A stretch of DNA of 64,000 bases, from NCBI GenBank assembly GCA_029204225.1, contig CM055108.1, positions 17,703,779 through 17,767,778 of the forward strand, written 5' to 3'. This document shows positions 6,590 to 63,751 of this stretch, in pieces (the stretch's first letter is position 1; the number at the start of each line of letters is the position of its first letter). Source of the stretch: Diphasiastrum complanatum (Eukaryota > Streptophyta > Lycopodiopsida > Lycopodiales > Lycopodiaceae). Under the pieces are notes generated by a model, which was not told the DNA's origin, ran no database searches, and was given only the letters and a program-made list of their open reading frames with translations. A program made the translations under genes and the position numbers.

Positions 6590-6593
6590 GATG

Positions 6594-10134: not shown

Positions 10135-11177
10135 ATGACTTACAAATCTTATTGGAAAGCAAAATTTTTGGAGTTTAAGACTACCCCGGGAGGTCAATCG
10201 ATATCAGAATTCTTAGTGCAACATGTATATATGCATTCAGAAATCAAAGTACATGATATCAATCCTCATGATCATCAACAATGTAATTGTAAGTATATCA
10301 AAACATATGCACTCTACAACAATCATAGGTGATTTCCTTTATTGATGCTCTTCAGATTATGATTTAAATGCTTCAACATTGTTTTTTTCTTTCAAATTTA
10401 TATCCATCATGCATAAGTGAATGGGAGCCCGCACAATCACTTGCAGGAATATTAGACGTGATTCACTCTGATGTTGGAAAGCTACAATACAGAGGAAGAA
10501 GTCCAAAGGAACTTGCAGATTGTGGTATCTATTTTTATGAATCTTTATATACGCCACAAACAGATGGAGGTTTTGGCAAGCTCGAAGCAATTCCATTGCC
10601 TAGTTTTCAAAGTGATGAGTGGCCTACTCCTGACAGCATTGTTTCTGAATTCTTGAAATGCAAGCTACTCATTGATATTAAAAATGCTATGAAGATAAGC
10701 ACAGGCTCAAAAATTGTTCACCTAAGTTGGTTTATCTCATTGCATACATTTGTTGATTTTTTCTCGAGTGCTAGTGTTCGTAGGACACCAACTTTATTTG
10801 TTTGCAAGGATTTATCAGATGAGACTTTGTCAGATCTCATGGATCAAGGTTGGGATAGTAAAACAAATAATGACATAGAATGCAGGATCAAAAAGTCCTC
10901 AATGATCTTTCGTTATCATATCGAAAAGCAAATGCTCAGTCTCACATTTAGCTACCAGAGATACAAGAAAATTGAAGGTACATGGCTACCACTGGATCAA
11001 GACTTTGAACTAAATGGTCACACAAACCGAATGGAGATAAGCATTATCTACAATGACGAATATTTGACTATGGTTGAGGTGGAAGAGCACTGGAAGCTTG
11101 ATTTTATCAGAACAGAGCTCATGCTATTACAAACCAATCTACCAACATATTTTAGATTTATCATCAACGAAAGACTC
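10135..11177 (+). CDS. Gene B of copy 1: conserved unknown protein of the multi-gene unit
   Basis: A possible first exon starts at ATG 10135 and reaches a GTAAGT donor at 10289. The main exon runs from about 10430 to 11177, where CTC|GTAAGT is a donor in phase 0. Its protein is clearly homologous to 54100-54607 in copy 2: shared blocks are TGSKIVHLSWF / TGSKNVHLRWF, RRTPTLFVCKDLSD / HRTPTLFVCKNLSD, FRYHIEKQMLSLTF / FRYNIEKQMLSMVF and FIRTELMLLQ / YIRTELTLLQ. The donor falls at the same residue in both copies. Conservation of protein over DNA implies past selection. No enzyme motif, zinc site or membrane segment is evident. The exact junction of the first two exons is unresolved. Confidence 0.65.
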
Positions 11178-11388
11178 GTAAGTACTTTATGTTTATTGCC
11201 ATTTCAAAAAAGAACAAAATAATAGAAAATGTCATCATTTACAATTGCACATTCACTAATATTTGCCATGTCACAAATGCGAAAAAGACAGGAGCTGATA
11301 ACGTGCTGCAAAGATCTACCTACAACAATCACCATTGTGGGAGAACAATAGTTTCAAATAAATTTTAGTAAAAATCTGTGTATACACT

Positions 11389-11546: not shown

Positions 11547-12425
11547 TTAATTTAGTACAACTACATCATCCTTTGCACCATCATCAATAACGGGAGGCTG
11601 AAGCCTTGCCCTAGCCAGTATACTCAGGATAATTTCTTGTCTAAATCTGTACACCTGGTTTGATGTGTACTCAGGAAGTGTAAACTGCAAAATAGAACAT
11701 TCATGTATTAGTAATGGCCAATAACATCACCAGAATAGAGAACTAATCATGATTCCAAAATAAGAGTAAACAAAATTTATTACCTTAGAAATATCAACAT
11801 CTTGTTGAAGGATGAACCACTCAAAAAACAACTTGGCATTTTACAATGTGTACCACCCACAGTTGAATGAATCATTTTGCTGGGGTGACTGCAAAATAAT
11901 TCAACACACAAGAAATCAATTATGAAACAGAATGAATTAGATTGAGAATATTTAGAATACTGATTTCAAAATGCTATTAAGAAAGACAGAGTTTACCTCC
12001 AAGCTGGCGATCTGCCAGTTCACGGAATGGGGAACGTCTGTAGGAATATATTTACTTAGATATGGAATGTATATATCTACATCCTTATGTGTATTTCTCG
12101 CCGAATTCATCTTGACACAAAAACATTTGATAATATTATTTACAGATTTCTTAGTAGAAATCAGGTTTAAACTCCAGTGGTCACTACAAAATAAGATTGA
12201 AATTTCTTTAGTTGCAATTCTGAGAACTATTTTCATTGACAATGCCAATGTTAATGCATAAAACAGCAAGAAGAATTTAATATAACTTACTTTGTATGAT
12301 AAGGTATGAGCAGATACTTTGTTGTTGGTGTGAATCCACTTGTCAAACACTGTGACAATGTGTCATTGTTCTCCTTGAAGGCCTGAAGCAGGAAGTTACT
12401 CTGCACCAACAACTCATTTGATGAA
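11547..12425 (-). pseudogene. C48 Ulp1-like cysteine protease, 3' exons (copy 1)
   Basis: Minus strand, downstream of the element E insertion. Exon part 12425-12291 ends LLIPYHT, donor AAA|GTAAGT. Exon 12183-11997 supplies NDHWSLNLIS, the catalytic His-Trp motif of Ulp1/SENP peptidases. Exon 11888-11784 supplies PQQNDSFNCGWY, the Gln-(x)n-Cys-Gly active-site motif. Exon 11684-11547 ends VVVLN and TAA. All introns are GT..AG and the exons join in frame (phases 2, 0, 0). Family role: thiol proteases removing SUMO/ubiquitin-like proteins or processing polyproteins. One TAA interrupts the active-site exon just after the Cys motif, so this copy is inactive. Copy 2 has the same exon borders. Confidence 0.85.
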
Positions 12426-13107
12426 TGTAAAAATTACAACAAATAAGGATCCTAAAACACTTGAAATGATGAGGAAAACAATAGATTATGATTTCATAAG
12501 ATTAGCACAAGTTGAACCATCAAAATCCATCAAAAATCTATGCTTGAACCTCACTAAATGGCCCAAATCCTTGAAGAAGGCTTCACACGTGTGAAAGTAC
12601 GGCCTCCCACAGTCTGAGTACTGTACACCAGACCTACATTCAATCCTATAATCATTAGTAATCACAAGTACTCAAACAATTATGAACATAGAGAGCAATT
12701 GCACCATTATGAGAGAAAAAACATGAAATTGCTTGATTGATTTTGGTGAGATATCATCACCTATATATACATGATCCATCACGATTTTGGGCAGGTATGA
12801 GTAGCCCTAAACCTATCCCTAATGCTAATTTTGGTGGATCTTTCATCCCTACCAAGTTAGGGCTGTAATCTTGGAGATCCCTCAACAATGCAAAAATTAC
12901 CAAAAATAGCTCCTATTTTTTCTCCCTTGTATCTAAGCATAATTTGGACTCATTCCAAAGGTTCTAACACTTAGGTCTACTTGAGAGCATCCTTATGAAT
13001 GGAATCCTATGCTATTTGACACGTGTGACAAGCCACATCATGACCATCTAACTATTTACAAGTCATATGATCAAAACTAGTCAAGCTAGAATTGTGAATT
13101 TTTAACA
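12426..13107 (-). repeat. 3' LTR of element E
   Basis: 682 bp, pairs with 17901-18582. Carries the palindrome TTCACACGTGTGAA near 12583-12596 and a second CACGTG near 13020. Confidence 0.93.
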
Positions 13108-13190
13108 CTCCTCCTCACTATCTAGCTTGGTTCAATCATTGCTTTACTAATCACTCCAAGTGATGATCTGAACTTCATAAAAGGTGTCTA

Positions 13191-16100
13191 TTAAAGTGGT
13201 TTAGTAAGTAGATCAGCTACACATTCATTGCTTGGAACATGCTCCAAAGCAATCTCCTTGGCTTGCACCATTTCTCTCACAAAGTGATGGCATATCTCAA
13301 TGTGCTTAGATCTTGCATGGAAGATTGGGTTAGATGCAAGGTGTTGGCTCGATATATTGTCATTGTAGATGACTGGTGCCTCCTTTGAATCCATGATCTT
13401 TAGTTCCACCAATAATCTCTTGATCCAAAGTACCTCCTTTGTAGTGGTTGTCAAAGCTTTGTACTCGGCCTCGGTTGAAGATAGAGATATAGTTTCTTGC
13501 TTTTTTGAAAGCCATGAAACCACACCTTCTCCTATGAAAGTTGAATAGGCACTTGTTGATTTCCTATCCCTCTTGTCCCCTGCAAAATCTGAATCACTAA
13601 ATGCATGAAGGTTAATCACATCTCCTCTATATAGAATCCCAAAATCCAATGTACCCGAGATGTATCTTAGAATCCTCTTAGCCTCTTTCCAATAGATATT
13701 CAATGGCTTTTGCATGGATTGGCTCAACCTACATACACTAAAGCTAAGATCTGGTCTAGTTATAGTGATCCACATTAAGGAACCTATAAGTTGCCTAAAC
13801 AAAGTGATGTCCATGAAGGATCTTTCATCATCTTCATTTGGCACTTTTACATCTTGCTCCATTGGTGTGTCAACACTTTTGCATACTTCCATCTTAAACT
13901 TCTTCAAAAGACTTTGAGCATAGTTTACTTGACTTATAAAGATAAAATCAGACCCTCTAAGTACTTCTATGCCTAAGATGAAGTGAAGACACCCTAGATC
14001 TACCATCTTGAACTCTGAGGATAGATCTATCTTGATTTTTTCAATACCATCAACACTATTTCCATAATGATGATGTCATCTACATAAATGAGTAAAAGTA
14101 CAATACCAACATCATCAAACTTAATGTAAAGAGTGGGATCATATTCACTTTGAACAAAAGAAAGTGAAATAAGATAGCAATGTAGTCTTGAATTCCAAGA
14201 TCTCGAGGCTTGCTTCAAGCCATAGATGCTTCTTTGGAGATGGCATACTTTGTTCTCCATTCCATGCTTGATGAACCCTTGTGGCTGCTCCATATAGATA
14301 GCCTCTTCCAAAAAACCATTCAAGAAAGCATTAGAGACATCCATTTGACATAGAATCCATCCAAAATGTGATGCAAGTGCAATGATTAGCCTTATTGTGA
14401 CCACCTTGGCCACAGGTGCAAAAGTTTCCTCATAGTCTATCCCTCTCTCTTGAGCATAACCTTTTGCAACTAATCTTGCTTTATGTTTGTTAACACTCCC
14501 ATTTGCATTCAACTTAAGCTTGAAGACCCACTTGCATCCTATTACATTCCTTTGAGGTCTCTCAACAAGCAACCAAGTTTCATTCTCAATCAAGGCATCA
14601 TACTCATCCAACATAGCTTTATACCATTCTTTGGAGTTCAATGCATCTTCAACATTAGATGGTTCTTCAAAACTAGATAAAGCATAAGAAGTGGATGAGA
14701 TACCCTCAACTTGCTGTCCTTTGCCTTGATATGTGAGCCTTGATGGCTCCACTTTTGCCCTTGAAGATCTCCTTGGTGTGATAGGTGGGTTTGGTGCTTG
14801 CTCCTCCATGAGCTCCTCCTCAAAACCAAGATCTTGCTCCTCGGCCATCTTCCTCTTGATTGTTGGAGCACTTGAGCCTTCTTCAAGCATATGCATATGA
14901 TGTTCATCAAAGATGACATCCCTTGAAACAACAAATTTGTTTAAGGATGGGAGATAGACTTTGTAGCCCTTGCTTGAGCTTGCATATCCAAGCATGATCC
15001 CTCTTGTGGAAGATGGATCCTCCTTGGTTCTTGTTTCCAATGGCACATGCACATAACATATACACCCAAAAACTTTCAAGTGATTAAGATTGGGTTTCTT
15101 TCCATACAACATCTCATAAGGAGTTTTGTCTTCAATTGCTTTGCAAGACACCCTATTCATCAAGTAGTTTGCACATACAAGAGACTCACCCCAAAAGGAT
15201 TTGGGCAAACAAGCATCTAATCTTAAAGCCTTAGAACATTCACATAATGTTCTATTCCTTCTTTCAGCAACTCCATTTTGTTGAGGAGTGTAAGGACAAG
15301 AAGTCTCTTTCTTGATCCCTTCCTCCTCACAAAAGGCCTTGAACTCATTGGAGATGAATTCTCCACCATTGTCACTTCTAAGAATCTTGATGCTATGATT
15401 ATGATGCTTTTCCACAAACAACTTGAACTTTACAAAAGTATCAAATACTTGAGACTTGAAGGAAAGTAAGAACACCCAACAATATCTTGAGTAGTCATCA
15501 ATGAAGGTTAAAAACATGGATGAACCTCCATTAGATTTGGTGCTAGCAATTTGCACATCCGAGTGTATGAGTTCAAGAGGATGAGATGACTTTGTGATGG
15601 AGTTAGGAAACACCTTCTTATGTGCCTTGGATAAGGCACAAGCTTCACAAACCTTGTTTTCCTTCCCAATAGACCTTGGTAGGCCTAAATCATACTCCTC
15701 CTTGATCATAGCCTCCATGGAACCCGAGTTGACATGTCCAAGTCTTTTGTGCCATAAAGTAAAAGTAGATATCTTGCTCTTCTCGGCCAACATGACAACA
15801 TTAGTATCCACAAATGCATCCAACTTATAAAGTTTTCCAAGTCTAGTGCCCTTAGCCACTATCCTATCCTTCTTCTTGATGAAACATTCATTTGAAGCAA
15901 AGTCAACATTGAAACCATTGTCTACCATTTGGCCAACACTTAGTAGATTCTTTGTTATTGTAGGAATGTACAAAACACCTTCTATGTTGATCTTTTTGGA
16001 AGATCCTAAGCAAAGGGGAATTCTACCAACTCCTTCAATCTTACAAGCTTCATCATTTGCTGTATAGATAGACTTCATAGGTCCATCATAAGATAAGAGA

Positions 16101-17089
16101 GAAGAGAAAAACTCCCTTTTACTAGTCATGTGTGAACTAGCACCCGAGTCAATCCACCAAGGATCTTCTCCTTTGAAGCTTGTTGAAGAAAATATGGACA
16201 TCATGAGAGAGTCCTCATGTGAACTCTCCTCCTCCTCCTCTTTGATCATGTTGGCTTGGCTTTGATCTTGCTTCCTCTTGAAGCATTCCGAGGCATAATG
16301 CCCCATCTTGCTACAATAGTAGCACTTCACCTTTGATTTGTCCTTCTTGACTTTGGTGGTTGATGGAGATGCCTTTAAGGGTCCTTCTTGATCCTCAAGC
16401 TTTGTAGACTTCTTGAATGTTGATACTTTGCCTTTGGACTTGCCTTTGCCTTTGGTGAAGAGAGCTTGGTCATCTCCACCTTGGATGGAAAGCCTATCCA
16501 TCCTCTCTTGCATTTGGCTCCTTCTTGATTCCTCAACCATGAGTGTGCCTTGGAGTTCTTCAAGTATGGGTAGCTTACCCATAATTGCATATCCCTGAAC
16601 CAAATTGTCAAATTCAAAGCTTAGTCCATTCAATATGAGTTGAACAAGCTCTTCATCCTTGATAGGATCACCTATAAAGGCTAGCTCTTTGTTCAATTCC
16701 TTTACTCTTAGGACAAAAGTATGTGCACTCTCTCCTTTCTTTTGATAGCTTCTATAGATTTGATTCTTCAAAGCTAACATTCTAGTTTGGTTCTTGGATT
16801 CATAGACCTTTTGCAAAGTCTCCCAAGCATCTTGAGCTGAAGTGCAATCTCCTACCTCTCTTAAGAGTTCATTTGCAACATTCATTTTTATGCAATGTAG
16901 TGCAACATTGCACCTCTTGATGTATTTGGCTTTTTCTTGAGGATGAATAGGTTCACCCTCCTTACCATTTACAATTTCCATCATATCTTGCATGATCATG
17001 ATAGATTCCATTCTAACTTTCCGTATGGAATACTTAGTTTTGTTAAGCCTTTCATTGGTATCCAAAAGATATGCATTTATAGATGCCAT
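13191..17089 (-). pseudogene. Copia gag-pol of element E, one frameshift
   Basis: ATG at 17089 (MASINAYLLDTNERLN). Domain order is Gag/UBN2 (about residues 15-200), zinc knuckle CYYCSKMGHYASEC, aspartic protease WWIDSGASSHMT, integrase with HSDVQ, RSDNGGEF and QQNGVAERRNRT, reverse transcriptase with IYVDDIII, and RNase H with SDSDFAGD and SSTEAEYKAL, i.e. Ty1/copia order. The frame breaks right after the YVDD motif (near 14058), where one G appears missing; the other frame continues from 14006 to a stop at 13191. Everything else is open, so decay is minimal. It would have made one polyprotein of about 1300 residues. Confidence 0.93.
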
Positions 17090-17888
17090 CTAGTCTCCTA
17101 ATCAAGGACTTGACACAAATGAAGGTTACTTCTATTGATTTTATTGAAGGTCTATCTTATCCCACTTCTTAGGGACCTGAAAAGATCAGTAATAGACTTC
17201 CTATAAAGATCTAAGAATGATCTCTAACAAAATCAGATCATAGAATACTAGAAACAATGCACTTGCTTGATTGAAGTAGACAATACTAGTAGAATTGCCC
17301 CTCTTTCTATAAAGAACATTAAAGCTTCCAAATGATCTAATCAAGAGTGAATTTCAGCAACCTAATATACTTCCAAAATCACTTGTAAAAGAGCTAAATG
17401 GAACTTAATGAGGATGCAACACAATCTACTATCCAATCACAAGCAAAAAATGATCAAAATTGATGAAAAATTGATCTAATTTGGTGCATAAGTCAAGCAA
17501 TGGTTGGACTGAACCTAAATCACTTTAGGAGGTGCCTACTACACCTTAGAACAGCCTTGAAGAGTCCCCAAAACTCTGATCTTCCCTCTCCTTGAATGCT
17601 AGAAAGCCTCCTCTATGAAAACACCTCCAAAACTCGCTTAGAAATCAATGCTTGGAGCAAGCAAAACTTGCTATCTTGGTAATGTGAATTGAAGTCAACT
17701 TTGCCTCTGGTTTTAGACACCTAAACACCTGCAAATGAAGTCACACAACACCAATCTCCAATGTATTTGACTCACTTTGAGTTCTAGAATCAATACTAGA
17801 TGCTAAGATCCAATCTACACAAGATTTAGATCAAAAATTGTGATCAAATTGAATGAAAACCAAGGATTTAGCTCATTTCAACCTTTAG

Positions 17889-17900
17889 GCTCTGATACCA
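17889..17900 (-). promoter_or_regulatory. Primer-binding site of element E
   Basis: TGGTATCAGAGC on the minus strand, directly next to the LTR end; complementary to the 3' end of initiator tRNA-Met. Confidence 0.9.
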
Positions 17901-18582
17901 TGTAAAAATTACAGCAAATAAGGATCCTAAAACACTTGAAATGATGAGGAAAACAATAGATTATGATTTTATAAGATTAGCACAAGTTGAACCATCAAAA
18001 TCCATCAAAAATTTATGCTTGAACCTCACTAAATGGCCCAAATCCTTGAAGAAGGCTTCACACGTGTGAAAGTACGGCCTCCCACAATCTGAGTACTGTA
18101 CACCAGACCTACATTCAATCCTATAATCATTAGTAATCACAAGTACTCAAACAATTATGAACATAGAGAGCAATTGCACCATTATGAGAGAAAAAACATG
18201 AAATTGCTTGATTGATTTTGGTGAGATATCATCACCTATATATACATGATCCATCATGATTTTGGGCAGGTATGAGTAGCCCTAAACCTATCCCTAATGA
18301 TAATTTTGGTGGATCTTTCATCCCTACCAAGTTAGGGTTGGAATCTTGGAGATCCCTCAACAATGCAAAAATTACCAAAAATAGCTCCTATTTTTTCTCC
18401 CTTGTATCTAATCATAATTTGGACTCATTCCAAAGGTTCTAACACTTAGGTCTACTTGAGAGCATCCTTATGAATGGAATCCTATGCTATTTGACACGTG
18501 TGACAAGCCACATCATGACCATCTAACTATTTACAAGTCATATGACCAAAACTAGTCAAGCTAGAATTGTGAATTTTTAACA
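17901..18582 (-). repeat. 5' LTR of element E
   Basis: 682 bp. A TATATATA box lies near 18237-18244 (minus). The 14-bp palindrome TTCACACGTGTGAA is at 18057-18070, downstream of that box in element sense. Confidence 0.93.
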
Positions 18583-19042
18583 ATGAATCTCTTGCAATGT
18601 CATATTGCAAGAGTGTAAGCCCGGACTCTATCACAGGATCACTGATAGAAGCCCGTCTGTCTTTGAGATCCAAGCAATCTAGAACTCTAAAATTAATACT
18701 AAAATCAAGCTCATCTAGTCTAAAACAAAAAGGAGTACCAATTGTATCTATAGCATCCGATATGTCTTTCTCAAATTTAAGATAATCATCCGAATCTATA
18801 TATGTACAAAAATTTGGAGGAGGAGGAGAAGGTGGTGGATGTGTAGTATCTACAGCAATTATAGGAGTATCCAAAACATAGGTAGCTATATTTACAGCAT
18901 TATCAACAACAGCATTATCTACAATGGATTCTGGGATAGGCTTCACAGAATCTGAAGTGTTAGGCTTCACTTTCTTAGGAGCATGCTTGGGGGCTGTCTG
19001 CTTCCTAGGACAACCTATCAGAAAGATAGGTACTGTAGGTAC
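18583..19042 (-). pseudogene. Ulp1-like protease, 5' part and basic linker (copy 1)
   Basis: Minus-strand frame open from 19042 to the element E insertion at 18583, and continuing in frame across it into the catalytic exons. It begins with a basic linker (CPRKQTAPKHAPKK), then an acidic/proline-rich stretch (PPPSPPPPNF), then a globular block with DRRASISDPVIESGLTLL that matches ISDPVVEAGLMYFV in copy 2. No ATG occurs in this frame between the upstream stop (19043-19045) and the catalytic part, so the protease has no obvious start of its own. The same frame class holds the upstream H3-like N-terminus, which argues for a fusion. Confidence 0.72.
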
Positions 19043-19078
19043 CTATCCTTCTGATAGGTACCTATAGTATCTATCAGA
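19011..19078. repeat. Short imperfect repeats at the H3-protease junction
   Basis: Three imperfect units with CTATCAGAAG/A and GGTACCTA motifs, partly inverted (GGTACCTATCCTTCTGATAGG). They lie exactly where the H3-like frame must shift back to the protease frame, so slippage here could explain the second frame change. Confidence 0.6.
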
Positions 19079-19438
19079 AGCTGAAAATCCTTGGGCATTA
19101 TGGTAACCTTCTTGGTATGGATGGCAAGCAAAAAAGAATCCTAAAAAAAAAAGGCTAATATAATCTTCAGCAGCCTCTTGAAGGCACTGAAGAGCACTCG
19201 ATGTGAATCGAACGTGCTGTCCGAGATCATTTCTTGTTATGTTTCGGATAGCACGGTAGAATGGAGCTCTTGGGATCAACAAGGCTGTTGACCTCTGATA
19301 CTTGCGTATCTCAGAGGGCCACCTGCTGCGGTTGCACGTTCTAGGTCTAGCAGGTGGTGTGATGGCAACCGCAGGAGATGAGGATGAGCCAGGAGAGAAG
19401 AAGTCCCTCCTTGTCTGCTTTCTCCTATCCATGGGCAT
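19018..19438 (-). pseudogene. Histone H3-like protein domain (copy 1)
   Basis: Start at ATG 19438 ([14 protein letters not shown], recalling the RTKQTAR tail of H3). After a Ser/Pro/Arg-rich tail comes the histone fold: [20 protein letters not shown] (helix N/alpha 1), [20 protein letters not shown] (alpha 2) and, after a frame change in a run of ten T (about 19143-19152), [17 protein letters not shown] (loop 2 and alpha 3). Canonical H3 has the same blocks in the same order. LLIP and QEAAEDY are closer to centromeric H3 than to H3.1, but a CENH3 role is not implied. The shifted part ends at a TGA at 19020-19018. The frame of the first part is the frame of the downstream protease. Expected role: DNA or nucleosome binding. 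Confidence 0.86.
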
Positions 19439-20250: not shown

Positions 20251-21643
20251 ATGGCCTCTTCCTCATCATCCTCACGAGAATCGGGCTTGAGTTCATTTCT
20301 GAGTGAATTTGGGATTACTGAAAACCTAGACTACTTCCACAGTCTATTCAGGCCATATCTACATGTTTTCAGGACTGCACAACCAAATTTTGACGTATTT
20401 TATGAACATTATGTCAGATTCAGAGATATACTTAGCAAGCTTGTTTTCTCCATAGGTCCACTCCAGTACATGCATTATACTGATCTTTTTCATTTCTTCC
20501 CAGCTTTTAGACATAGACTGGATAGAATGTTCACCAAATTGTTTGATCTTTTCAAAAGTAGTTCTATGTGTCCGTATTGCAACAAGAAATGTCGATTGAT
20601 TGAATATCAGAGTGGTTTCATACTTTTTCTGTTAGTTCAGATCCCAGATGATGATGAAGTTCCTATTGGTGACCCTCCTTTTGCACCCTCCTCTGTTCAG
20701 TCAACCATTAAAGATATCAGTCACTTTCTTATCGACACTCCTGATAAAAAAAGTGACTTTATTGACATAAATACTGATGTTCTCCGAGACTGTTTCATTG
20801 GCCAAAATACATCTACTGATGAATCCAAATCTATGGAGGATTCGAAATGTCTTTTCAATTTGCCTGTATATTATATTAATGATGATGTATATTTTACTAC
20901 TACTGATTTATGTAAAATTTTTGACTATCGTGAGAACGAGGTTCTATGTTTATTATCCGGCACAATTTTTGAATTCTCCGACTTTGTAGATTTTGAGACA
21001 GATGACCTTGTTGCTGGTATTGATTTTGATAATGAGGAGGGTCTTATGACCGGTGAAGAATGTCTGAATAAGACTTTATCAAATATAGCTGAGGATGGGC
21101 GAGGCAGACCATCCGATGAAGAATTCATGACATTTCAATCCCAGATGGGCTTCCCTCGTCCATCATTAATGCATTTCACTGATGATTTCACTTCAGTACG
21201 TGGTCATTATATTGATCATCCTAATCTGGTTGTTGCTGATGATGAAGAATGTGTAAGTGTTTAATCTTCCTTGTCTTTAAATGTTTTTAATCACTGAATG
21301 TGTTTTTGCTAACATATTTCCTATTGCAGGATGCTCTCATAATAGATGATTTTGCTGCGAGACGAGGTGGTTTCAGACAACACACATCCTCGTTCCAGAG
21401 GGACAGTGGACTGGGCCACTATCTTCGACATTTCTTGAAGAATGAGATTTGTATTGCTCATTCCAAGCTGAGCCCAGTCGGGGAGAGTCTTATAATGGCA
21501 GTTAAAGCTTTATCATTTTATCTAGGAGGACATAAATTTTTTAAGACAAATAAGATCATTTTTGTCAAAAGATCTTATGTTTTGAACATTTTAGGCTTTA
21601 CTGATGGGAATGTTCCTTTAAGGAGCTCCCATTATTCATTGTA
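20251..21643 (+). pseudogene. Gene E of copy 1: unknown protein, exons 1 and 2a, split by element F
   Basis: ATG at 20251 (MASSSSSSRES; the copy 2 homologue also starts MASSS, which decides the start). Exon 1 ends at 21252, intron 21253-21329 (GTAAGT..TTGCAG, phase 0), exon 2 continues to 21643, where element F is inserted. Removing F with one target duplication restores an open frame to TAG at 27631-27633, about 479 residues in all. A CPYCNKKC motif (possible zinc site) sits near residue 110; residues 130-330 are acidic. Exon 2 has FAARRGGFRQ and LGHYLRHFLKNEICIAH, matching FASRHGGLRE and LAHYLKHFLNNKICVLH in copy 2. Family unknown. Apart from the insertion no damage is visible. Confidence 0.8.
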
Positions 21644-22296
21644 TGTGAAAAACTCAGATCCAAAAGATGCTAAAGTTTCATAAAGATCTTGGCCATGGAA
21701 GTTATGCACATCTAGATTGAAAAAATGATAGAAATTGTGATGTTAAGCATACTAAACATCAACTAAACATCAAAATCTGATCATAAGCTTCCACAAACAG
21801 AAACTTGCTGTCCCTGTCCGTACTTCAGAGCCTACAACCTGCATTTCACACGTGTGAAGCCATAGCAACAAAGAAATCACAATTCTAGTGGCTAGAATGC
21901 AAGATATGAACAAAAAAGTGAGAGAGAAGAAGATGGACCTTCAAAGAGCATAACATTCATTCAATAGAATGAAAATGAGATGTGTACATACTCGTGGAGA
22001 TGGCTATTTATAGCAGCCATAGTGCCTCTTGGCCACTTGTCTTATGATAGGCTAAAATTGGGGTCCAATAGGATTCACCCATATACCTAGAAATTTGGTC
22101 AAATAGGAATGCACCAAATTATGAGCCAATAGAAGAGCTCCACACTCGACCTCCTCTAATTAATGTGACCTCAAAAGTAGTGTACACATACTTTGGGCCT
22201 CTACATACATGTATGAACCTATCTCTAACTTTTATTTGGCCATAGGCCTACAAAATCTCAAGTTAGGAAAATATTACTAGTTGACAATTTTTCACA
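21644..22296 (-). repeat. 3' LTR of element F
   Basis: 653 bp; identical by eye to 26852-27504. Its first bases supply the stop codon of gag-pol. Confidence 0.95.
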
Positions 22297-25200
22297 CTCC
22301 CTCTTCAACTAGTTTTAGCATAGATTTAGAAAGTACACCAAGACTTGTTCTATGCTTGAAAAATAAGTCCTTTCCCAATGCTTTGGTAAAGATATCAGCC
22401 ACACATTCCTTTGATGGGACATGTTCAAGCTTGATCTCTTTTGCCAACACTTGTTCTCTCACAAAATGGTAAGCCACCTCGATATGTTTGCTCCTTGCAT
22501 GGAAAACCGGATTGCTTGCTAGACTTTGGGCTGAAAGGTTGTCACAAAAGATGATTGGACTCTCTGAAAAATCCAGCAAATGAAGCTCCATAATCATCCT
22601 CTTGATCCACACCATCTCCTTTGTGCATGATGTCAAAGCTTTGTACTCGGCCTCACTAGAAGAAAGTGATATAGTTGCTTGTTTCTTCGACATCCATGAG
22701 ATAGCTCCATCACCTATGAAAATAGCATGTGCATTTATGGATTTTCTATCCATAAGGTCTCCTGCAAAATCTGAATCTGAAAAACCAAATAAGTTAGGTG
22801 ATGAGCCTCTATAAACAATGCCAAAATCTTTTGTTCCCGAGATGTATCTCAAGATCCTCTTTCCTAGTTTCCAATGTTCTATGCTAGGATCTTGCATGAA
22901 TTGGCTTAATCTACCAACACAATAAGATAAATCAGGTCTTGTGATGGTTAGATATATAAGAGAACCTATTAGCTTCCTATAGAGAGTAATGTCCTCGAAG
23001 GATCTTTCATTACCTCTTATAGTTAGCTTTACATGTGATTCCATAGGTGTATCAATAGGATTTGCATCTACCATATGAAATCTATTGAGAATAGAAATAG
23101 CATACTTCTCTTGTGAAATAAAAGTGATTTGAGAAGTTCTAATTACTTCTATTCCTAAGATATAGCTCAAAAGACCAAGATCATGCACTTCAAATTCCTT
23201 TTTTAGTGCTTTCTTGATATCTTCTATATCTTCCTTGTTCCCTCCACTTAAAATAATGTCATCCACATAAATTAGAAGGATTGTAACATCATTAGCACTA
23301 ATTCTAAAGTAAAGTGAATGATCATACTCACTCATAGTGAAGTTTTGAGAAAGTAGAAAAGAGTTAAGCCTAGCATACCAACTCCTTGGTGCTTGCTTAA
23401 GACCATACAAACTTTTTTGTAGAAAACACACATGATTAGGCTTGCTATGAGAAACATAGCTCTCGGGTTGCTCCATGTAGACTTCCTCTTCAAGATCACC
23501 ATTCAAGAAAGCATTAGAAATGTCTAATTGCCAAAGATCCCATCCATAAAGAGTTGCAAGGGAAATGATTACTCTTATGCTCACCATCTTTGCCACGGGT
23601 GCAAAGGTTTCCTCATAGTCAATGCCATGCTCTTGAGCATAACCTTTAGCCACCAACCTTGCCTTCAACTTGTTGATAGATCCATCTTGATTTGTCTTTA
23701 CCTTGAAGATCCATTTGCATCCAATTGCACTTTTGCCCTTTGGAAGCTCCACCAATCTCCATGTGTTGTTCTTCATAAGTGCTTCAAACTCAAGATCCAT
23801 TGCTTGGATCCATTCCTCTTCTTGCCTTGCTTCATCTACACATGAAGGTACATCAAAAGAAGTTAGGAAAGCATAGTTGGATCCATCCACCACTTGCTTA
23901 CCTTTGCCATCATAAGTGAGCCTTGAGGGTTTCACTTTATGCCTTGGAGTTCTCCTTGGAATTTGACTTGAAGAGGCTTCTTCAACATCCACATCCAAAG
24001 TGTCATCAACTCCATTGTCATCAAGCACATTAGTTGCAACAACACCATCATCACTTGAAACAACTTTTGGAATGTTACTTTCATCAAAAATGACATCCCT
24101 ACTTGTGAACACTTTCTTGATTGAAGGAACATAAATCCTATATGCTTTGCTTACTTCACTATAACCAACAAAAATGCCCTTTCTTGAAGATGGATCCTCC
24201 TTAGTTCTATCATCAAGAGTAATGTTGAAGTAGCAAATGCATCCAAAAGTTCTTAGAAACTTGACATTAGGCTTCGTACCAAACAAAGCTTCAAAAGGGG
24301 TTTTTCCTTCCAATACAACACTTGGCCATCTATTGCATAGGAAATTTGCACACAACAAAGCATCACTCCAAAAAGGTTTAGGAAGATTAGCATTCAATCT
24401 CATTGCCTTTGCACTCTCACACAAGGTTCTATTCTTCCTCTCGGCCACTCCATTTTGTTGTGGTGTTCTTGGACATGTGTACTCCCTCTTGATCCCATGC
24501 TCATCGCAAAAGGCTTTGAATTTGTTAGAAATGTATTCACCACCATTGTCGCTCCTCAAGCATTTGATTTTGGTTGTAAATTGAGTCTCAATAGCAACTT
24601 TGAACTTGACAAACACATCAAACACCTCATCCTTGCTCTTTAGTAGATAAACCCAACAAAATCTACTAAAATCATCAATGAAAGTTACATACATCTTAGC
24701 ACCTCCATTGCTAATTGTAGTAACACCATGAATATCCGAATGCAAGAGAGAAAAAGGCATCTTAGATCTAGATATAGATCTAGTATATGGCAATCTATGT
24801 GATTTAGACAAAGCACATTCTTCACAAACATGATTCAAGCAAGTAAGAGACTTGGGAAGTCCCCTTACTACCTCCTTTTTGGCTATTACCTCCAAGGCCT
24901 TGTAGTTGAGATGTCCCATCCTTTTATGCCATACCTCTTGAATTGACATTTGTTCATTTGCCATGCATCCAACTTGGTTAGCAACAACACATGCATCAAG
25001 CTTGAACAATTTCCCTTGCCTTTTCCCTTTTGCAATGATACTACACCCCTTTTTGATCAAGCAAGCATCACCATCAAACTCAACTTTGAATCCTTTGTCA
25101 AGCATTTGGCTTACACTAAGTAAGTTCTTGGTAATGGATGGAATGAGCAAAACATCTTTCAATTCTATATTCCTATTTGTAGAAAGTGAAATAGGAATTG

Positions 25201-26242
25201 TGCCAATCCCCTTGATTGCACACTCACCATCATTTGCGGTATAGATTACCTTCCTATCACCATCAAATGCCATTAAAGATGAAAAATACTCTTTATGATA
25301 TGTCATATGAGAAGTGGCTCCACTATCAATCCACCAAGGATCAATGTCTCCATGATTAGCCAACAAGCAAGATGACATAACAAAAGCATCATTTGAAAGA
25401 AGCTCATCCCCACCCTCATCAATAGTTAGATTGGTTTGCTTTTCCCCTTGATCCCTCTTTTTCTTAAAACAATCACTAGCAAAATGCCCTTTGACTCCAC
25501 AATAGAAACATTTTAGCTTAGATCTATCCTTCTTTTTGCCAAAAGTAGAGTGCTCACCTTGGTCTTGCCCTTTAGACCAATTGCTTTTACCTTTGCCCTT
25601 GAACTTGCCTTTAGAGAACATTGCCTCCTCTTCTCCTCCTTGAGATGTAGAAGATGCTCCCACTCTTGCTTGCAACCTGAATTCTTCAGCCAACAAGACC
25701 TCTTGCAAGTCTCCAACACTTGGTAAACATTTTTGGATAGCATAACTTTGAACAAGATTAGCATGATCATCCAACAAGCCATTGAGAATCACTTGAACAA
25801 GCTCCTCATTATTTATGCCATCATTAATGCATGCTAACTCATCATTCAATGCTTTAACTCTCAAAACAAAAGCATGTCCATTCTCACTCTTCTTTTGCAT
25901 ACAAGAAAAGATTTGCCTTCTTAAAGTCAACACTCTAGAAGTAGACTTGGATTCATAAACCTTCTTCAAGGCTTCCCAAGCTTCACTAGATGATGTGCAC
26001 TTACCAACCTCTTTGATAAGCTCATTTGTCACATTCATCTTGATCATGTGAAGGGCTTTCTTTGCCCTCTTGTCATACCTCAATTGTTCTTGAGGTGCCA
26101 AAGGTCTCTCCTCCACACCTACAACAATATCCATCAACTCATTCATCTCAAGCAAAGACTCCATCCTTACTTTCCAAGTAGAATAGTTGAGGGAGGTAAG
26201 CCTATCATTGCTTTCCAACATGTAGCCTCCATTTGTAGCCAT
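22292..26242 (-). CDS. Intact copia Gag-Pol polyprotein of element F
   Basis: 1316 codons, ATG at 26242 (MATNGGYMLESNDRL). Order: Gag/UBN2 (about 20-195), zinc knuckle CFYCGVKGHFASDC (about 245), aspartic protease WWIDSGATSHMT (about 303), integrase GAG-pre/HH..CC region, then HSDIHGV, RSDNGGEY and QQNGVAERKNRT (Asp, Asp, Glu), IN-RT linker RRTPRHKVKPSRLTYDGKG, reverse transcriptase with LLIYVDDIIL (about 985), and RNase H with FSDSDFAGD and SSSEAEYKAL. Acts in virus-like particles to reverse-transcribe and integrate the element. No stop or frameshift. The last codons overlap the polypurine tract, and the final GTG TGA straddles the LTR border. Gag is closely related to that of element G. Confidence 0.96.
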   Translation of the reverse strand: MATNGGYMLESNDRLTSLNYSTWKVRMESLLEMNELMDIVVGVEERPLAPQEQLRYDKRAKKALHMIKMNVTNELIKEVGKCTSSSEAWEALKKVYESKSTSRVLTLRRQIFSCMQKKSENGHAFVLRVKALNDELACINDGINNEELVQVILNGLLDDHANLVQSYAIQKCLPSVGDLQEVLLAEEFRLQARVGASSTSQGGEEEAMFSKGKFKGKGKSNWSKGQDQGEHSTFGKKKDRSKLKCFYCGVKGHFASDCFKKKRDQGEKQTNLTIDEGGDELLSNDAFVMSSCLLANHGDIDPWWIDSGATSHMTYHKEYFSSLMAFDGDRKVIYTANDGECAIKGIGTIPISLSTNRNIELKDVLLIPSITKNLLSVSQMLDKGFKVEFDGDACLIKKGCSIIAKGKRQGKLFKLDACVVANQVGCMANEQMSIQEVWHKRMGHLNYKALEVIAKKEVVRGLPKSLTCLNHVCEECALSKSHRLPYTRSISRSKMPFSLLHSDIHGVTTISNGGAKMYVTFIDDFSRFCWVYLLKSKDEVFDVFVKFKVAIETQFTTKIKCLRSDNGGEYISNKFKAFCDEHGIKREYTCPRTPQQNGVAERKNRTLCESAKAMRLNANLPKPFWSDALLCANFLCNRWPSVVLEGKTPFEALFGTKPNVKFLRTFGCICYFNITLDDRTKEDPSSRKGIFVGYSEVSKAYRIYVPSIKKVFTSRDVIFDESNIPKVVSSDDGVVATNVLDDNGVDDTLDVDVEEASSSQIPRRTPRHKVKPSRLTYDGKGKQVVDGSNYAFLTSFDVPSCVDEARQEEEWIQAMDLEFEALMKNNTWRLVELPKGKSAIGCKWIFKVKTNQDGSINKLKARLVAKGYAQEHGIDYEETFAPVAKMVSIRVIISLATLYGWDLWQLDISNAFLNGDLEEEVYMEQPESYVSHSKPNHVCFLQKSLYGLKQAPRSWYARLNSFLLSQNFTMSEYDHSLYFRISANDVTILLIYVDDIILSGGNKEDIEDIKKALKKEFEVHDLGLLSYILGIEVIRTSQITFISQEKYAISILNRFHMVDANPIDTPMESHVKLTIRGNERSFEDITLYRKLIGSLIYLTITRPDLSYCVGRLSQFMQDPSIEHWKLGKRILRYISGTKDFGIVYRGSSPNLFGFSDSDFAGDLMDRKSINAHAIFIGDGAISWMSKKQATISLSSSEAEYKALTSCTKEMVWIKRMIMELHLLDFSESPIIFCDNLSAQSLASNPVFHARSKHIEVAYHFVREQVLAKEIKLEHVPSKECVADIFTKALGKDLFFKHRTSLGVLSKSMLKLVEEGV

Positions 26243-26839
26243 GTTGCAATGATTGATCTCTGATCTTTGACCTGTTCCAATGCACTAAGCACTCTCTTGA
26301 ATCAACAAATGAAACACAAGAAGAAATCACAAAGATTTGGAACCTAAAACCTTACTTTTTCTCTCTTTTCCTCACTTTTTCCTTAATTTTAGCCACTAGT
26401 TTTATGATTTCTTGATCAAACCAAGACCAAACCTCAATATACTTGCTTTTCCCTCACTCCTAAGATTGAAATACACTCTTGAATCATTCAGCAAACTGAA
26501 AATCAGAGGGTTACATCAATTTTGAAGTTTTTGACATGAAGAAGCAAGAAATTGAATCAAAAAACTATATGCTAGAATGGAAAACTAATAGGATCTTGTT
26601 GGATCTTGCATCTCCCTCTTTCCAAAACAATTTTTGTCTCCTTATTCTGATAAGTACAGAGGGAATTCGCCCTACTTCAATTGAAATGCATACAAATGAT
26701 GTTTTGATCACAAAGATCCAATTTCTACACATAAATCAACAAGATTTTTAGCTAGAAACTTGATTGGAATGCTACAAAAGCAAACTCGCCCACAAATCTC
26801 TTCTAAATCTGGCAAAACCTGCACATTTGGCCGCCTAAT

Positions 26840-26851
26840 GCTCTGATACCA
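26840..26851 (-). promoter_or_regulatory. Primer-binding site of element F
   Basis: TGGTATCAGAGC on the minus strand directly abutting the 5' LTR; initiator tRNA-Met complement. Confidence 0.92.
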
Positions 26852-27504
26852 TGTGAAAAACTCAGATCCAAAAGATGCTAAAGTTTCATAAAGATCTTGG
26901 CCATGGAAGTTATGCACATCTAGATTGAAAAAATGATAGAAATTGTGATGTTAAGCATACTAAACATCAACTAAACATCAAAATCTGATCATAAGCTTCC
27001 ACAAACAGAAACTTGCTGTCCCTGTCCGTACTTCAGAGCCTACAACCTGCATTTCACACGTGTGAAGCCATAGCAACAAAGAAATCACAATTCTAGTGGC
27101 TAGAATGCAAGATATGAACAAAAAAGTGAGAGAGAAGAAGATGGACCTTCAAAGAGCATAACATTCATTCAATAGAATGAAAATGAGATGTGTACATACT
27201 CGTGGAGATGGCTATTTATAGCAGCCATAGTGCCTCTTGGCCACTTGTCTTATGATAGGCTAAAATTGGGGTCCAATAGGATTCACCCATATACCTAGAA
27301 ATTTGGTCAAATAGGAATGCACCAAATTATGAGCCAATAGAAGAGCTCCACACTCGACCTCCTCTAATTAATGTGACCTCAAAAGTAGTGTACACATACT
27401 TTGGGCCTCTACATACATGTATGAACCTATCTCTAACTTTTATTTGGCCATAGGCCTACAAAATCTCAAGTTAGGAAAATATTACTAGTTGACAATTTTT
27501 CACA
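26852..27504 (-). repeat. 5' LTR of element F with TATA box
   Basis: 653 bp. TATAAATA (minus) at 27213-27220 is the likely core promoter. The palindrome TTCACACGTGTGAA is at 27053-27066. Confidence 0.93.
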
Positions 27505-27509
27505 TTGTA

Positions 27510-27834: not shown

Positions 27835-30290
27835 CTAAACTCTGCGGTAGAACCACTGAAACGATTGACAAATGTAGTTTCGTTTTTCATTGGTTCCTCC
27901 ATGTTGTGTATTTCGATGAAATACTGCTCGTGCTTGCCAGTGTGACTTCTCCATCCCTTGTGATGACCATACACTCAAGCTTCCGTATGTATTTGCAAAA
28001 AATGTTGTATGATCTCTTAGTATGTGCTGCATATGTCAAAATCATAATGTTAGTCTTATGTTTGGATCTAAATATATATGAAAATTTGAAAGCATTTTGA
28101 AAATTTTATACTTACCATGTAATGAGTGATGTGATCTTCTCCCCATGCTTTTGATATTGCATTAACAAACTCGATACAAGTCCTTTGGACAGCTTTCTTA
28201 TCAATATCAGAGTATTTTTCTTTGCTTAAAATAGCAATCATACTATCAAGCTTTTTCCCTCACATCAACTTTAAGTACTTTGGTTTTTCCGTCTTTCTCG
28301 AAGTCCTGAGTGGCAGCAATAATATCTGTCCAGACTGAGTGTTGAATATTAAAAGCCTTACCAGTATGATTTGATAGAAAACGACATGTTTTTGCTCCTC
28401 CTATGCTTGACTTAGTTGGCATGTTCCCATTCTTTCCTGAAAGCTTTTCATCTTTTTGAATTTTGACATGTCCTTTATGGAGTCTAGCTTTTGATAAAAC
28501 TTCTTCTAATCGAGAGATAGCTTCCTTTGCTAATGATGTCGGCTTAGTATTCCAAGCAAAAACTATATGAAGATAAATGATCTTTTCTATTAATCTAACT
28601 TCTGCATAAAGAGTGCAAACATGCACATTTTTTAAGGGGATAGGCAGCACAGGCTTCCAATTTGGATTTGCATATTCTCTAGTAATTCCTTTACTCCTAG
28701 TTACATCTTTTGTCATTTTCATGCAGTACAAACAAGGCTGTTTTGATGTAGCACCGTGAGAGACATTATACATACATTTCAATGTTTTCAAATCACCTGC
28801 TAAGTGCCATTCAACATTGAAGTCTCCAACTCCTGGAACATTGAGAAGTCCTCCATCCATATGGTCCTTGATGATCCTAGAATAAGATGTCCTTGAGAAT
28901 ATCCATATACCTGAAACGCTGCCAACCACCATATATCATTTTTTGACTAGACACTGAATTTGAAATCTTCTTGGTTCTCTATTTGTGATAGAGCACCATT
29001 CATGAGAGTTATACTAACCCTTTCCATCTTCTGCCCTTTCACAATTTCTGACTCATCTAACTTAAGTACTATGATTATTCACCTTTTCATAGGTTATATC
29101 ATAGAATGTGACGATGTATCTCAGCAAGTAATTTAGATCAACAAATAAATTGTTTGATGAATTATAGAATATCGATCTTCCATCAGTTTCATACACCTCC
29201 TCAATATGAAATGGAGTTCCAGTGATCTTATGCATACCTATGTTTAATGTATCCCTCTCTTTCTTCAAGTGATATGTCCTAGGGATTGGGACTTTTCTAG
29301 TTCGAACTTGCTTAAAAGCTTATCTAATTAGTTTAAATATTGTTGCATATGCTTCCCTACTAATACCTGCAAAATCACAAGCACCCTAAACTATAGTCTT
29401 ATCTAAAATATTTTGAATGTCCACCATCAAAGACTGCTATTTTACACTTTACATTTGAAATCCTATTGTTCATCATGATACGCTCAGTGGATTTGCAAGT
29501 CAATATTGTGCCCAATGACATTCCTAGTGAAGCATTGTCTTTAATATTTCGAGGAGCTACTAATGCAGATCTGCAAAAAAAATAGATAGTTAACAAAATA
29601 TCACCATAGCTGAAATTAAATCCAAATGTCATTGAAAGACTTACAAAATTTAGAATATGCTTACTTGAATGCACGAATCCTTCTATTTCGATAACCTCCT
29701 TTTGAAAGCGTTTGAATATCCTTGCAACTTTGTCGCTTTCGCTTCTTACTTTCAGCCTTCTTCTTTACCAAATCCACATCCTTCAGTAATTGTAAGTTTT
29801 TAATACGAATAGATTGTAAGACTGATTGCATTTGCTCTAGTTCTGATTTGATATTGATTGTTATCTTCTGTAATGATTCATTATTTTTTCAAGTTGTTCA
29901 TTTTCTTCTAACGTCTTTTGGAAATGACAATCTCTATTCTGAAAAGACATCCATTTTGGCTCACATATTATAAGAGGATATCCGAATTAACTCACCTTCT
30001 AAAAAGTGAACTTTATTCATATAAAGTTGTTTTCCATGGTTTGCAATCTTTCACAATATCCTAGTAATCCAATATGCCCATTGCATATCCATGTAAATGA
30101 GTTATTGAAGAGAATGTGGGATGTGTCAAAGTGCTTGGATCTTGTGGATATAATGTTCCATTTGTCCAAAAATCCATGTTTTTCTTTCCTTCTGCCCTGC
30201 AACGAGAACGATCTTCAGCAGATATTTGAACTCCTTTGCCTCCTCTTCTCTACAAAGGTGCCACATCAATAGGGATATCCACATGTAGAT
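27835..30290 (-). pseudogene. Gene F of copy 1: transposase-like protein, several exons, decayed
   Basis: Minus strand, convergent with gene E. From 5' to 3': DFWTNGTLYPQDPSTLTHPT (about 30160); a Lys-rich coiled coil ending KGGYRNRRIRAFK with a GTAAGC donor near 29666; an exon SALVAPRNIKDNASLGMSLG; RTRKVPIPRTYHL (about 29290); KLDESEIVKGQKMERVSITL; then VEWHLAGDLKTLK..KQPCLYCMK (about 28810-28720), LPIPLKNVHVCTLYAE and RFLSNHTGKAFNIQHSVW; donor ATG|GTAAGT at 28116; last exon 28026-27835 with YGSLSVWSSQGMEKSHWQ. From memory, GGD..L...CxxC, HVCTLHA and SGQG.EK blocks occur in uncharacterised transposase-like proteins of many eukaryotes; I cannot name the superfamily. Frame breaks and stops inactivate it. 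A homologue ends the window in copy 2. Confidence 0.6.
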
Positions 30291-31067
30291 GATATAATGT
30301 CATCATCAAAAAAATAATAGAGTAATCAGTTGCATCAAAGTACTATGACCAGATTCTATGAAGCAAAACAAAATACTCATCTTTGATTATATTATATACT
30401 ATGTACGATCAATACAATCTCCATGCTTGTATGCTTGATTCAAATTTGGAAATGCCGCTCATTTTTTCATTCCAATAGGTAGTTGCGCTCATATTTCCAT
30501 TCTCGTGGAAGGAATGCATATGTAAACATTTTGCAATTTTTCCTGATTCAAATTTGGGGATGGCGGTCATATTCTAGATCCAGTGAAAATATTGCCCTTT
30601 TCGTAACCAATGGAGGGAATATTTTTGAATTTTATCAAGTTATACTGCGAACTGTTAACAGTTCTTAATTGTGACTATAGACACTGTGGTTAGATTATTG
30701 GGAGTTGGGGAGGCCTTGGGAGTGGTGTGGGCAAGCAAATAAACAATATTGTTTTATTTATTTTGATATTTTTGTATATCCTACATGGCATTCCTTAAAG
30801 GGTCTTTTTGATATTGAGAACTCCTCTAATGGTTCTCTCATTGCTAATTCAGGTTGTGTTCAACCATTCTACTAGAACGCTCTTGGCTTGAGGTAGTATC
30901 CACAAGAATTCACCAATGGTTATATTTATTCTATTGGATAATATACTAGTGAGAAATTTTGTTTGTGAATGTCAAGTTCTATCGTGTGGAAAGGAGCCAC
31001 CTGATTCTGTAAGTGTTCATTCATGTCCAATCTTAGTGGCAACCAACTGGTGGTACTAGAACTTCTA
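30291..31067. other. No gene; includes one end of a MITE-like element
   Basis: Non-coding. A direct repeat GATTCAAATTTGG recurs near 30429 and 30543. At about 30775-30830 the sequence CTTAAAGGGTCTTTTTG..AACTCCTCTAAT matches the right end of the inverted-repeat element at 38858-39235, so a truncated relative lies here. Confidence 0.5.
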
Positions 31068-53879: not shown

Positions 53880-54607
53880 ATACCCTGGATAGACAAAGTA
53901 GTCAAATGAGCACATCGTATCCACATTACAAATTGGGAGAGTCTAGGACATTGGGAATAGTTGCGCCAATCTATGAAGAGCAATATCAACAAGTTTTATC
54001 TTGGGATATTCTAATGGAATGCCTCGACTACCCAATTGTCAATGAACAAGGTTATCCGGAATGGCCACCAGAATCTTAATGCTTTTGTTCCAAGCTATAT
54101 AATGATGTACAAAAGTCACTCAAAACTAGTACAGGATCCAAAAATGTGCACTTAAGATGGTTTGTTCCAATGTCATTGTTTGTCAGCTCTTTTTCAGACA
54201 CGGAAGTGCATCGAACTCCCACATTGTTTGTTTGCAAAAATCTTTCAGATGATTTTTTATTCAAATTCATGGACAAAGGTTGGGATATAAGATCCACTGC
54301 AGATATTTCTTGTAGAATCAAACATTCATCCATATCATTTAGATACAATATAGAAAAGCAAATGCTTAGTATGGTGTTTCATTATCAGAGATGGAAAGAA
54401 CACAATGGTACTTGGGCCCCATTAGATCAAGATCTAGACAACATTGGACACACTGATCGTATAGGCATTGATATCATGGCAAATGGGGATTTACTTACTA
54501 CTATTGAGGTTGAGCAAGACTGGACCTTATTCTACATTAGAACGGAACTGACACTTTTACAGCAAGTTATCCCCGAATATTTCAACTTTATATTAGATGG
54601 AAAATTG
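53880..54607 (+). pseudogene. Gene B of copy 2
   Basis: Homologue of 10430-11177. Upstream part: HYKLGESRTLGIVAPIYEEQ and NEQGYPEWPPES followed by a stop near 54078, matching DEWPTPDS in copy 1. From about 54110 it is open: TSTGSKNVHLRWF, HRTPTLFVCKNLSDD, NIEKQMLSMVFHYQRW, IEVEQDWTLFYIRTELTLLQ, ending GKL with donor TTG|GTATGT at 54607, the same position as in copy 1. Unknown function; protein-level conservation indicates a once-functional gene. Confidence 0.68.
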
Positions 54608-54966
54608 GTATGTAAAATCCATGAATTTGTATATTAATTTATATTCATTATCATTTTTGTCAATATTTGGATCACTAACTGTAATTTGATTAATGTATGT
54701 TTGTGCATATACGTAAAAGACATGAAGAGAAAATCAAATGCAAAGATTTGGACAGAATTGTTCAGATAATAGAGCAATCATGATACAAGATTTGTAAAAG
54801 CTCTCATAAATATCAATATATTTCTCATTTTCTGAGAATGTACATGTGTGTTGTGTATTTAACAATGGATGCTTTTTTCTCATTGTCTCTATCTTTCATA
54901 TGCCCATAATTATTCACAGGGCATTACATCAAAAATGTATATCTCTATTTAATCTATTATTTACAG

Positions 54967-55196: not shown

Positions 55197-55217
55197 GCCA
55201 TTCACTAGTCTATTTAC

Positions 55218-56384: not shown

Positions 56385-56422
56385 CGTATGTACTCCTCAG
56401 CCTCATGACAAGATGCATGTCC
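56385..56422 (-). pseudogene. C-terminal end of H3-like domain (copy 2), left of element G
   Basis: Reads HLVMRLRSTYD then TAA, completing the alpha-3 helix after MPQDM at 61978. Canonical H3 ends MPKDIQLARRIRGERA. The stop, and two more (TGA, TAG), lie in the same frame before the protease. Confidence 0.78.
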
Positions 56423-57069
56423 TGTGAAAAATACAGATCCTAAGTGGATCTAAACTCCAAGATCATTGGCTTGAATGCTTGCACTCCAAACTACATAAGC
56501 TAGGAATTGGCAACACATTCTATGCTACCTAGAATGCAAAGAACTTGATCAAAAAGCATTTATCACAAATGGAAACTTCCATAAACATCAAGTGCGGCCC
56601 AAAATAGCATTATACAGTCCATAATACATCAGCCTATCACTTTTGGAAAGCACCTAAGATCATACACACAAAGCTTGAACTCAATCACTACACAATGCCA
56701 ACAATGGAAGGAGAACCCAATAGAAAAATCTCTCATTAAGCAAATGAATACAATGGATCTGCTCCAACCTATTTCTCCACGGCCTACCTGCTATATATAG
56801 CTGAGAGAGATGACTCTCTCTCCTCTCTCTAGACCCTCCTTACCTAAAATATGCCCTATATAGGTAAAATTGGCATATATGTCCAAAATACATGAAAATG
56901 GACTCATTTCGAAGGTCTTGAAGTTTGACACTTCTTCATACTGAAAAAATACACTTACTAAAAATATCTAGACCTGTTTCACACGTGTGAAAAGTCAGAT
57001 CCTAAACTATGTGCCATTTTTAGCAATTTTGGCCTAAAACTAGACAAGGAAATGTTGACAATTTTCACA
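56423..57069 (-). repeat. 3' LTR of element G
   Basis: 647 bp, identical by eye to 61331-61977. Carries TTCACACGTGTGAA near 56978-56991. Confidence 0.94.
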
Positions 57070-57082
57070 CTCCCTCTTCAAC

Positions 57083-60157: not shown

Positions 60158-60223
60158 GATGCTAATATCTTCTTGTGTCCTTAGGCTCTGTTCTAATGCA
60201 CCTAGCACTCTCCTTTCTCTCAA

Positions 60224-61318: not shown

Positions 61319-61330
61319 GCTCTGATACCA

Positions 61331-63750: not shown

Positions 63751-63751
63751 G

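Follow-up and report, generated by a model that had tools for sequence, protein, structure and literature searches.

A predicted histone H3-Ulp1 protease fusion gene carried by a high-copy TIR transposon lineage of Diphasiastrum complanatum

Ulp1-bearing plant transposons and the H3-Ulp1 gene

Plant DNA transposons that carry an accessory gene with an Ulp1 domain are already known. The VANDAL elements of Arabidopsis, which are MULEs without terminal inverted repeats (TIRs), contain Ulp1-bearing VANC genes (KIU/Kaonashi), and KIU is said to hypomethylate elements of its own type, its Ulp1 domain being described there as of unknown role (PMC13317346). The anti-silencing effect of VANC consists in causing loss of DNA methylation (PMC5735166). 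The gene described here resembles KIU in being an Ulp1-domain accessory gene of a plant DNA transposon in an anti-silencing context (PMC13317346), but differs from it in that the Ulp1-like domain is joined to a core histone H3, tail included, and in that the element has TIRs. Pfam yielded, for the element proteins scanned, no match to a MULE or VANC-type domain, although a Pfam miss is not proof. For the H3 module, we found no precedent in the open-licence literature searched, in which neither a transposon-borne core histone nor a histone-Ulp1 protein appeared among the matches listed, as judged by titles and the beginnings of abstracts.

The window, that is, the whole stretch of DNA analyzed, comprises 64,000 nt of Diphasiastrum complanatum (Eukaryota; Streptophyta; Lycopodiopsida; Lycopodiales; Lycopodiaceae), namely, positions 17,703,779-17,767,778 of the forward strand of contig CM055108.1 in the 1.74 Gb assembly GCA_029204225.1, and harbors two copies of the gene, both broken, copy 1 of family 1 and copy 2 of family 2. 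When the genome was searched with the H3 part of copy 1, 5349 first-look candidates were obtained and all 150 that were scored had E <= 4.7e-51, so the observation is not a matter of chance; the H3 part of copy 2 gave 6322 first-look candidates, of which 150 were scored as well. These candidate numbers are not copy counts because both sets are loose and might overlap. A match without a stop in a frame of at least 297 aa was counted by hand in 17 of the 150 scored family-1 rows; the family-1 sample consists of 20 loci, namely, 15 of these 17 rows and five rows with one TAG, and the family-2 sample of six loci taken for long frames. The choice of copies by H3 protein similarity and frame length favors low dN and open frames. 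Throughout, L numbers denote genomic loci of H3-Ulp1 copies or H3-like sequences and P numbers denote database proteins; exons 2-4 and the splicing are predictions based on GT/AG sites and on frames without stops.

Few host proteins are as highly conserved as the core histones, and SUMO has ties to chromatin silencing. If true, the finding would offer a direct and testable example of a mobile element that makes its own chromatin component.

The predicted fusion protein

It is highly probable from the sequences compared that a high-copy lineage of TIR transposons encodes one predicted gene in which H3 and an Ulp1-like protease are fused. The predicted protein begins with an H3 tail and the complete H3 fold, followed by a linker rich in basic residues and proline and by an Ulp1-like protease of the C48 family, an architecture that is shown at the DNA level. 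The original prediction was that of an ancestral fusion, with an uninterrupted reading frame across both regions set as its test. Such a frame was found in 13 of the 20 family-1 copies, where exon 1 can be read without a stop from the MDRRK start codon across H3, the linker and the N-terminal region of the protease (N-region) to YHT, and in five of the six family-2 loci (L037-L040 and L042), where the frame is open from MARTK to PYCQ or PYYQ; a conserved stop accompanied by a separate ATG between the domains was not seen in the intact copies fetched. The open copies, thus, uphold the fusion, but it is not solely ancestral because intact frames are present in the genome now.

The donor pattern at YHT is present in 10 of the 13 open family-1 copies, and downstream of exon 1 there are three more predicted exons, the predicted introns being located inside the protease, not at the H3-protease border. 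All four predicted exons are open in at least five of the 20 family-1 copies (L010, L013, L015, L017 and L018; 470-479 aa), a count that is a lower bound because the splice patterns used were strict. Both domains are recognized by Pfam above the cut-offs in L018 (Histone, PF00125, E 1e-27; Peptidase_C48, E 1.1e-10, 42.2 bits) and in L010 (E 8.3e-22; E 3e-9, 37.5 bits), the curated cut-off for Peptidase_C48 being 20.7 bits. In family 2, the frame of L037 continues into the last predicted exon, where an early stop limits it to 482 aa, and its product matches Histone with E 9.5e-21 and Peptidase_C48 with E 2.3e-5 (24.8 bits, cut-off 20.7). The two families are collinear over 469 columns with 29% identity (E 2e-60), and the first intron is inserted at the identical point in both, just before the catalytic His. 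The shared architecture, the 469-column alignment and the shared position of the first intron therefore indicate that the fusion is older than the split between the families.

Four other origins of the arrangement were ruled out: an assembly chimera, by the identical order at many loci, on many contigs and in two families; an intron between the two domains, or a distinct gene there, as the cause of the frame breaks, by the single exon in intact copies; an ordinary host H3 or CENH3 gene, by the very large number of copies and their location inside TIRs; and a viral source, by three scans of viral contigs that detected no relative.

In copy 1, 19140..19438 (-) encodes the tail and the greater part of the H3 fold, with the MDRRK ATG at 19432; this piece (19438-19140(-)) matches Pfam Histone with E 1.5e-15, and its closest solved chains in the PDB are H3 and Cnp1, at E about 1e-10. 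The last part of the fold, at 19060..19141 (-), is in a different frame (a single frame in intact copies) and is followed by the linker and N-terminal protease region at 18583..19010 (-), which is homologous in both families and has no Pfam family of its own. As originally described, the first H3 part and 18970-18583(-) are in a common frame and the C-terminal H3 piece, from the T run to 19011-19078, is in another; the stretch 19011-19078 looks rearranged since, by eye, it is unlike the linker of intact copies. The lack of an ATG at the start of the protease was confirmed as well, there being no Met in the copy-1 frame from H3 to the end of exon 1. The segment 18583-19438 had been taken for H3 plus protease, and it does encode H3, the linker and the N-terminal protease region, but the catalytic part is located at 12183-11547(-), beyond a Copia-type LTR element (12425..18582; LTRs 98.5% identical) that lies within exon 1 and is absent from the other copies, which are contiguous at this point. 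The remainder of exon 1 up to the predicted donor (12291..12424 (-)), predicted exon 2 with the catalytic His in DHWSL (11997..12183 (-)), predicted exon 3 with the Gln/Cys motif QQNDSFNCGW and one stop (11784..11888 (-); Peptidase_C48 E 0.0019, 18.5 bits, below the cut-off of 20.7) and predicted exon 4 with the stop codon (11547..11684 (-)) follow, the models of exons 2 and 4 being derived from the intact copies.

The interruption of H3 in copy 2 by an element, also part of the original prediction, turned out to be caused by a Copia-type LTR element (56423..61977; LTRs 100% identical) that splits the H3 fold (61979..62302 (-); Pfam Histone E 8.4e-19). H3 resumes at 56422, and the last H3 helix, linker and N-terminal region, at 55663..56422 (-), contain stops before 56274 and are uninterrupted in L037-L040. 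A protease stretch with stops and the Gln/Cys motif QQEDGHSCGW is located at 55212..55331 (-) and has a homologous exon in L037; the read-through protease piece of copy 2 has no Pfam match.

The best solved relatives of the protease part are the Ulp1-like SUMO protease 6dg4 (E 4.8e-4) and yeast ULP1 (E 6.5e-4). In the comparison with the Ulp1/SENP SUMO proteases (MEROPS C48), the active-site His, Gln and Cys are aligned with the Ulp1 structures; however, the column of the catalytic Asp contains no Asp in the element protease, with an Asn near by, and the H3 module at the N-terminus is a further difference. Because Asp is missing at the catalytic position, the protease activity may be changed or lost.

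The nearest solved relatives of the intact copies are PDB H3 chains, from E 4.2e-19. The tail of L038, L040 and L042, all from family 2, is MARTKQTAR as in the H3 of the host, the canonical form of which (L051) starts MARTKQTARKSTGG; the tails of L034-L037 and L039 are one or two residues off this motif, the K4 context KQT is present in most family-1 copies, and K9 is missing from the tail in both families among the copies fetched. The module shares with H3 and CENH3 the full fold and, in family 2, the K4 context of the tail, but differs from them in being fused to a protease, in lacking K9, in occurring once per protein of ~475 aa and in being borne by a transposon. The positions of H3-H4 pairing, which we take to be R83, H113, K115, D123 and R129, look kept by eye; some H3 loop features are CENH3-like, again by eye, namely, one extra loop-1 residue in family 1 and RW in family 2. 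Two trees of H3 folds are compatible with either H3 or CENH3 parentage. When the query is CENH3-like, 13 rows form a separate group by score (E 4e-28 to 1e-27), and the one that was read, L051, is the canonical H3; a host CENH3 gene was not identified with this query, one of the 13 separate rows having been read. A third repetitive H3-like sequence (L048, L049 and L050) has a long Pro-rich N-terminus and RRERN followed by a stop right after the histone fold, and no Ulp1 motif was noticed in the 1.5-1.7 kb read.

Searching protein databases with the window copy produced one match, the CENH3-like P0003 (2359 candidates), and the full-length protein produced 13 (4565 candidates), 12 of which are H3s whose extensions are either tandem or unrelated. 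P0073, a protein of 391 aa from another source, contains H3 with the tail MARTKQTMRK and a C-terminal extension that appears by eye to be collinear with the N-region; given that hhalign is unsupportive (E 0.24), it is not counted as a second organism with the fusion.

The element and its transposase-like gene

The H3-Ulp1 gene is part of a four-gene element of ~9.3 kb (8.7 to 9.4 kb in four copies, by subtraction), both ends of which bear a 35-bp inverted repeat, CATTAGAGGAGTTCTCAATATCAAAAAGACCCTTT. Comparison among loci gave a sharply defined downstream end for 13 of the 20, and the upstream end was found in seven of the nine stretches searched, once with altered outer bases. Read in the direction of H3-Ulp1, the element consists of a TIR, gene 1 (same orientation), gene 2 (opposite), H3-Ulp1, gene 4 (opposite) and the second TIR. 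The copy-1 element spans 30831 down to 10109, with the 35-bp TIR of its right end at 30797..30831 (-); its downstream end is missing because homology with the other copies ceases at 10109. Gene 4, convergent with H3-Ulp1, is located at 10368..11222 (+), and gene 2, which is divergent from it and has two predicted exons, at 20251..21644 (+), continuing at 27505-27630 past a Copia-type LTR element (21643..27504) that has identical LTRs and is lacking in the other copies, which are contiguous. Neither gene 2 nor gene 4 has a Pfam family above the cut-off. Gene 1 is transposase-like and broken, represented by tblastn pieces within 28077..29779 (-). Around copy 2, the homologs of gene 4 (54059..54619 (+); tblastn, 53% identity, E 5.6e-61) and gene 2 are in positions that match copy 1; the end of gene 2 and then a gene 1 fragment are found by tblastn on a common strand (63361..63986 (+)), the fragment being oriented oppositely, unlike copy 1.

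Gene 1 has 64 database relatives, the named ones being proteins of ferns and of one clubmoss. The relatives scanned matched no Pfam family, and a search of PDB sequences with the gene 1 profile gave no match. The predicted fold of one relative, P0009, is nearest to RAG1/Transib among solved folds, and D, D, CxxC, HxxxxH and E/D are conserved in the family, which by predicted fold resembles the RAG1/Transib transposases. The occurrence of such a fold in these plants is also relevant to the history of the superfamily.

What links gene 1 to RAG1, ProtoRAG and Transib is that the solved folds closest to that of P0009 belong to this group. Transib/RAG transposons produce a 5-bp target-site duplication and have ends that start with CAC (PMC8355894). 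By contrast, the ends of the element begin with CATTAG, no 5-bp duplication was seen, and there is no match of a sequence profile in the PDB. None of the five full copies with both ends clear (L015, L017, L018, L024 and L028) shows a target-site duplication, nor does L020, the copy with the altered upstream end. The CACTA (EnSpm) transposons are characterized by CACTA ends and a 3-bp duplication; the element differs from them in its CATTA ends and in the duplication (0/5 copies). A short element of 378 bp in the window (38858-39235) has ends like those of the H3-Ulp1 element and ACC on both sides, and another with similar ends (L013, 7000-7364) has no flanking duplication. In P0063, a protein named from Diphasiastrum complanatum, a calmodulin-like EF-hand sequence is joined to a piece of gene 1; either a host gene contains an exon from the transposon or the annotation is wrong.

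Selection and possible roles

The dN/dS values were obtained as mean dN over mean dS across non-independent pairs. In family 1 (14 copies, 91 pairs), they are 1.06 for the tail, 0.60 for the H3 fold, 1.55 for the linker and 0.35 for the N-region. The family-2 values (seven copies, 21 pairs) are 1.27 for the tail, 0.20 for the H3 fold and 0.71 for the linker, the last resting on few more than four copies; the N-region, which L034-L036 lack, has 0.34 (four copies, six pairs). For protease exons 2-4 of five family-1 copies (10 pairs), pN is 0.029 and pS 0.116, a ratio of 0.25. The ratios for the N-region and the protease are the fairer ones because selection of copies for H3 similarity and long frames lowers dN in H3. 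Between the families, pN and pS of the H3 fold are 0.37 and 0.73, near saturation, and dS is undefined in 29 of 98 pairs. The small pN/pS ratio of the protease exons points to selection in the past.

As a whole, the explanation that we consider the best, and a fairly probable one, is that the transposon-borne H3-Ulp1 fusion is a chromatin-anchored anti-silencing factor. The mechanism itself, a chromatin-anchored and SUMO-directed action of the kind discussed for the Ulp1-bearing VANDAL genes, is proposed as the likeliest role, with odds somewhat below even. Through pairing with H4, the H3 module would anchor the protein on chromatin or within it; the protease might detach SUMO, or a similar modifier, from local silencing factors, and this de-SUMOylation might keep the element transcribable or its ends accessible. 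Possessing the K4 context and lacking K9, the tail could therefore bear an active mark, not the K9 silencing mark. A somewhat doubtful extension is that the element builds a selfish nucleosome part: the K9-less H3 variant would be incorporated into nucleosomes of the element with the SUMO protease in cis, rendering the chromatin refractory to silencing; with a transposase of RAG/Transib fold alongside, this would be a type of plant transposon lineage absent from the literature searched. Against the anti-silencing explanation stand the absent catalytic Asp, the lack of a target-site duplication in the five full copies, and the dN/dS of 0.60 in the family-1 H3 fold and of about 1 or above in the tails and the family-1 linker. 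A single polypeptide that unites H3 with a SUMO-type protease might also have a bearing on the great abundance of the lineage.

Conceivably, although we regard this as unlikely, the H3 module is instead a targeting device that guides the transposition complex to selected chromatin, such as that of centromeres or that just assembled, with the protease freeing or maturing parts of that complex. The location of H3-Ulp1 and the transposase-like gene within shared TIRs and the CENH3-like appearance of some H3 loop features would fit such a role, but the two trees are as compatible with H3 as with CENH3 parentage. Still less probable is a passenger origin, in which fragments of host H3 and Ulp1 were captured and are carried without function. 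Gene capture by plant transposons is common (PMC13317346), the tail and the linker are without constraint, and the 17 of 150 scored matches with long frames free of stops leave most matches outside this class; against this, the architecture is identical in two families with only 29% identity, the splice points are conserved, and pN/pS is low in the protease exons and the N-region. It is very improbable that H3 and protease are made as two separate proteins, through different starts, splicing or cleavage, with the joint exon being incidental: Met codons do occur in the N-region of L013 and L017 and in the linker and N-region of family 2, but a single open exon joins H3 and protease, and L010, L015 and L018 have no Met from H3 to exon 2.

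Apart from the element, Rfam and tRNA scans were empty. A 332-aa ORF at 47577-48575 (+) matches the Dof zinc finger (E 7e-32) in two stretches, and a 375-aa ORF without a Pfam family, at 8592-9719 (+), lies outside the part common to other copies. The window also contains a 2.6-kb repeat, with copies at 4966-7616 and 31469-34076 that are 88% identical.
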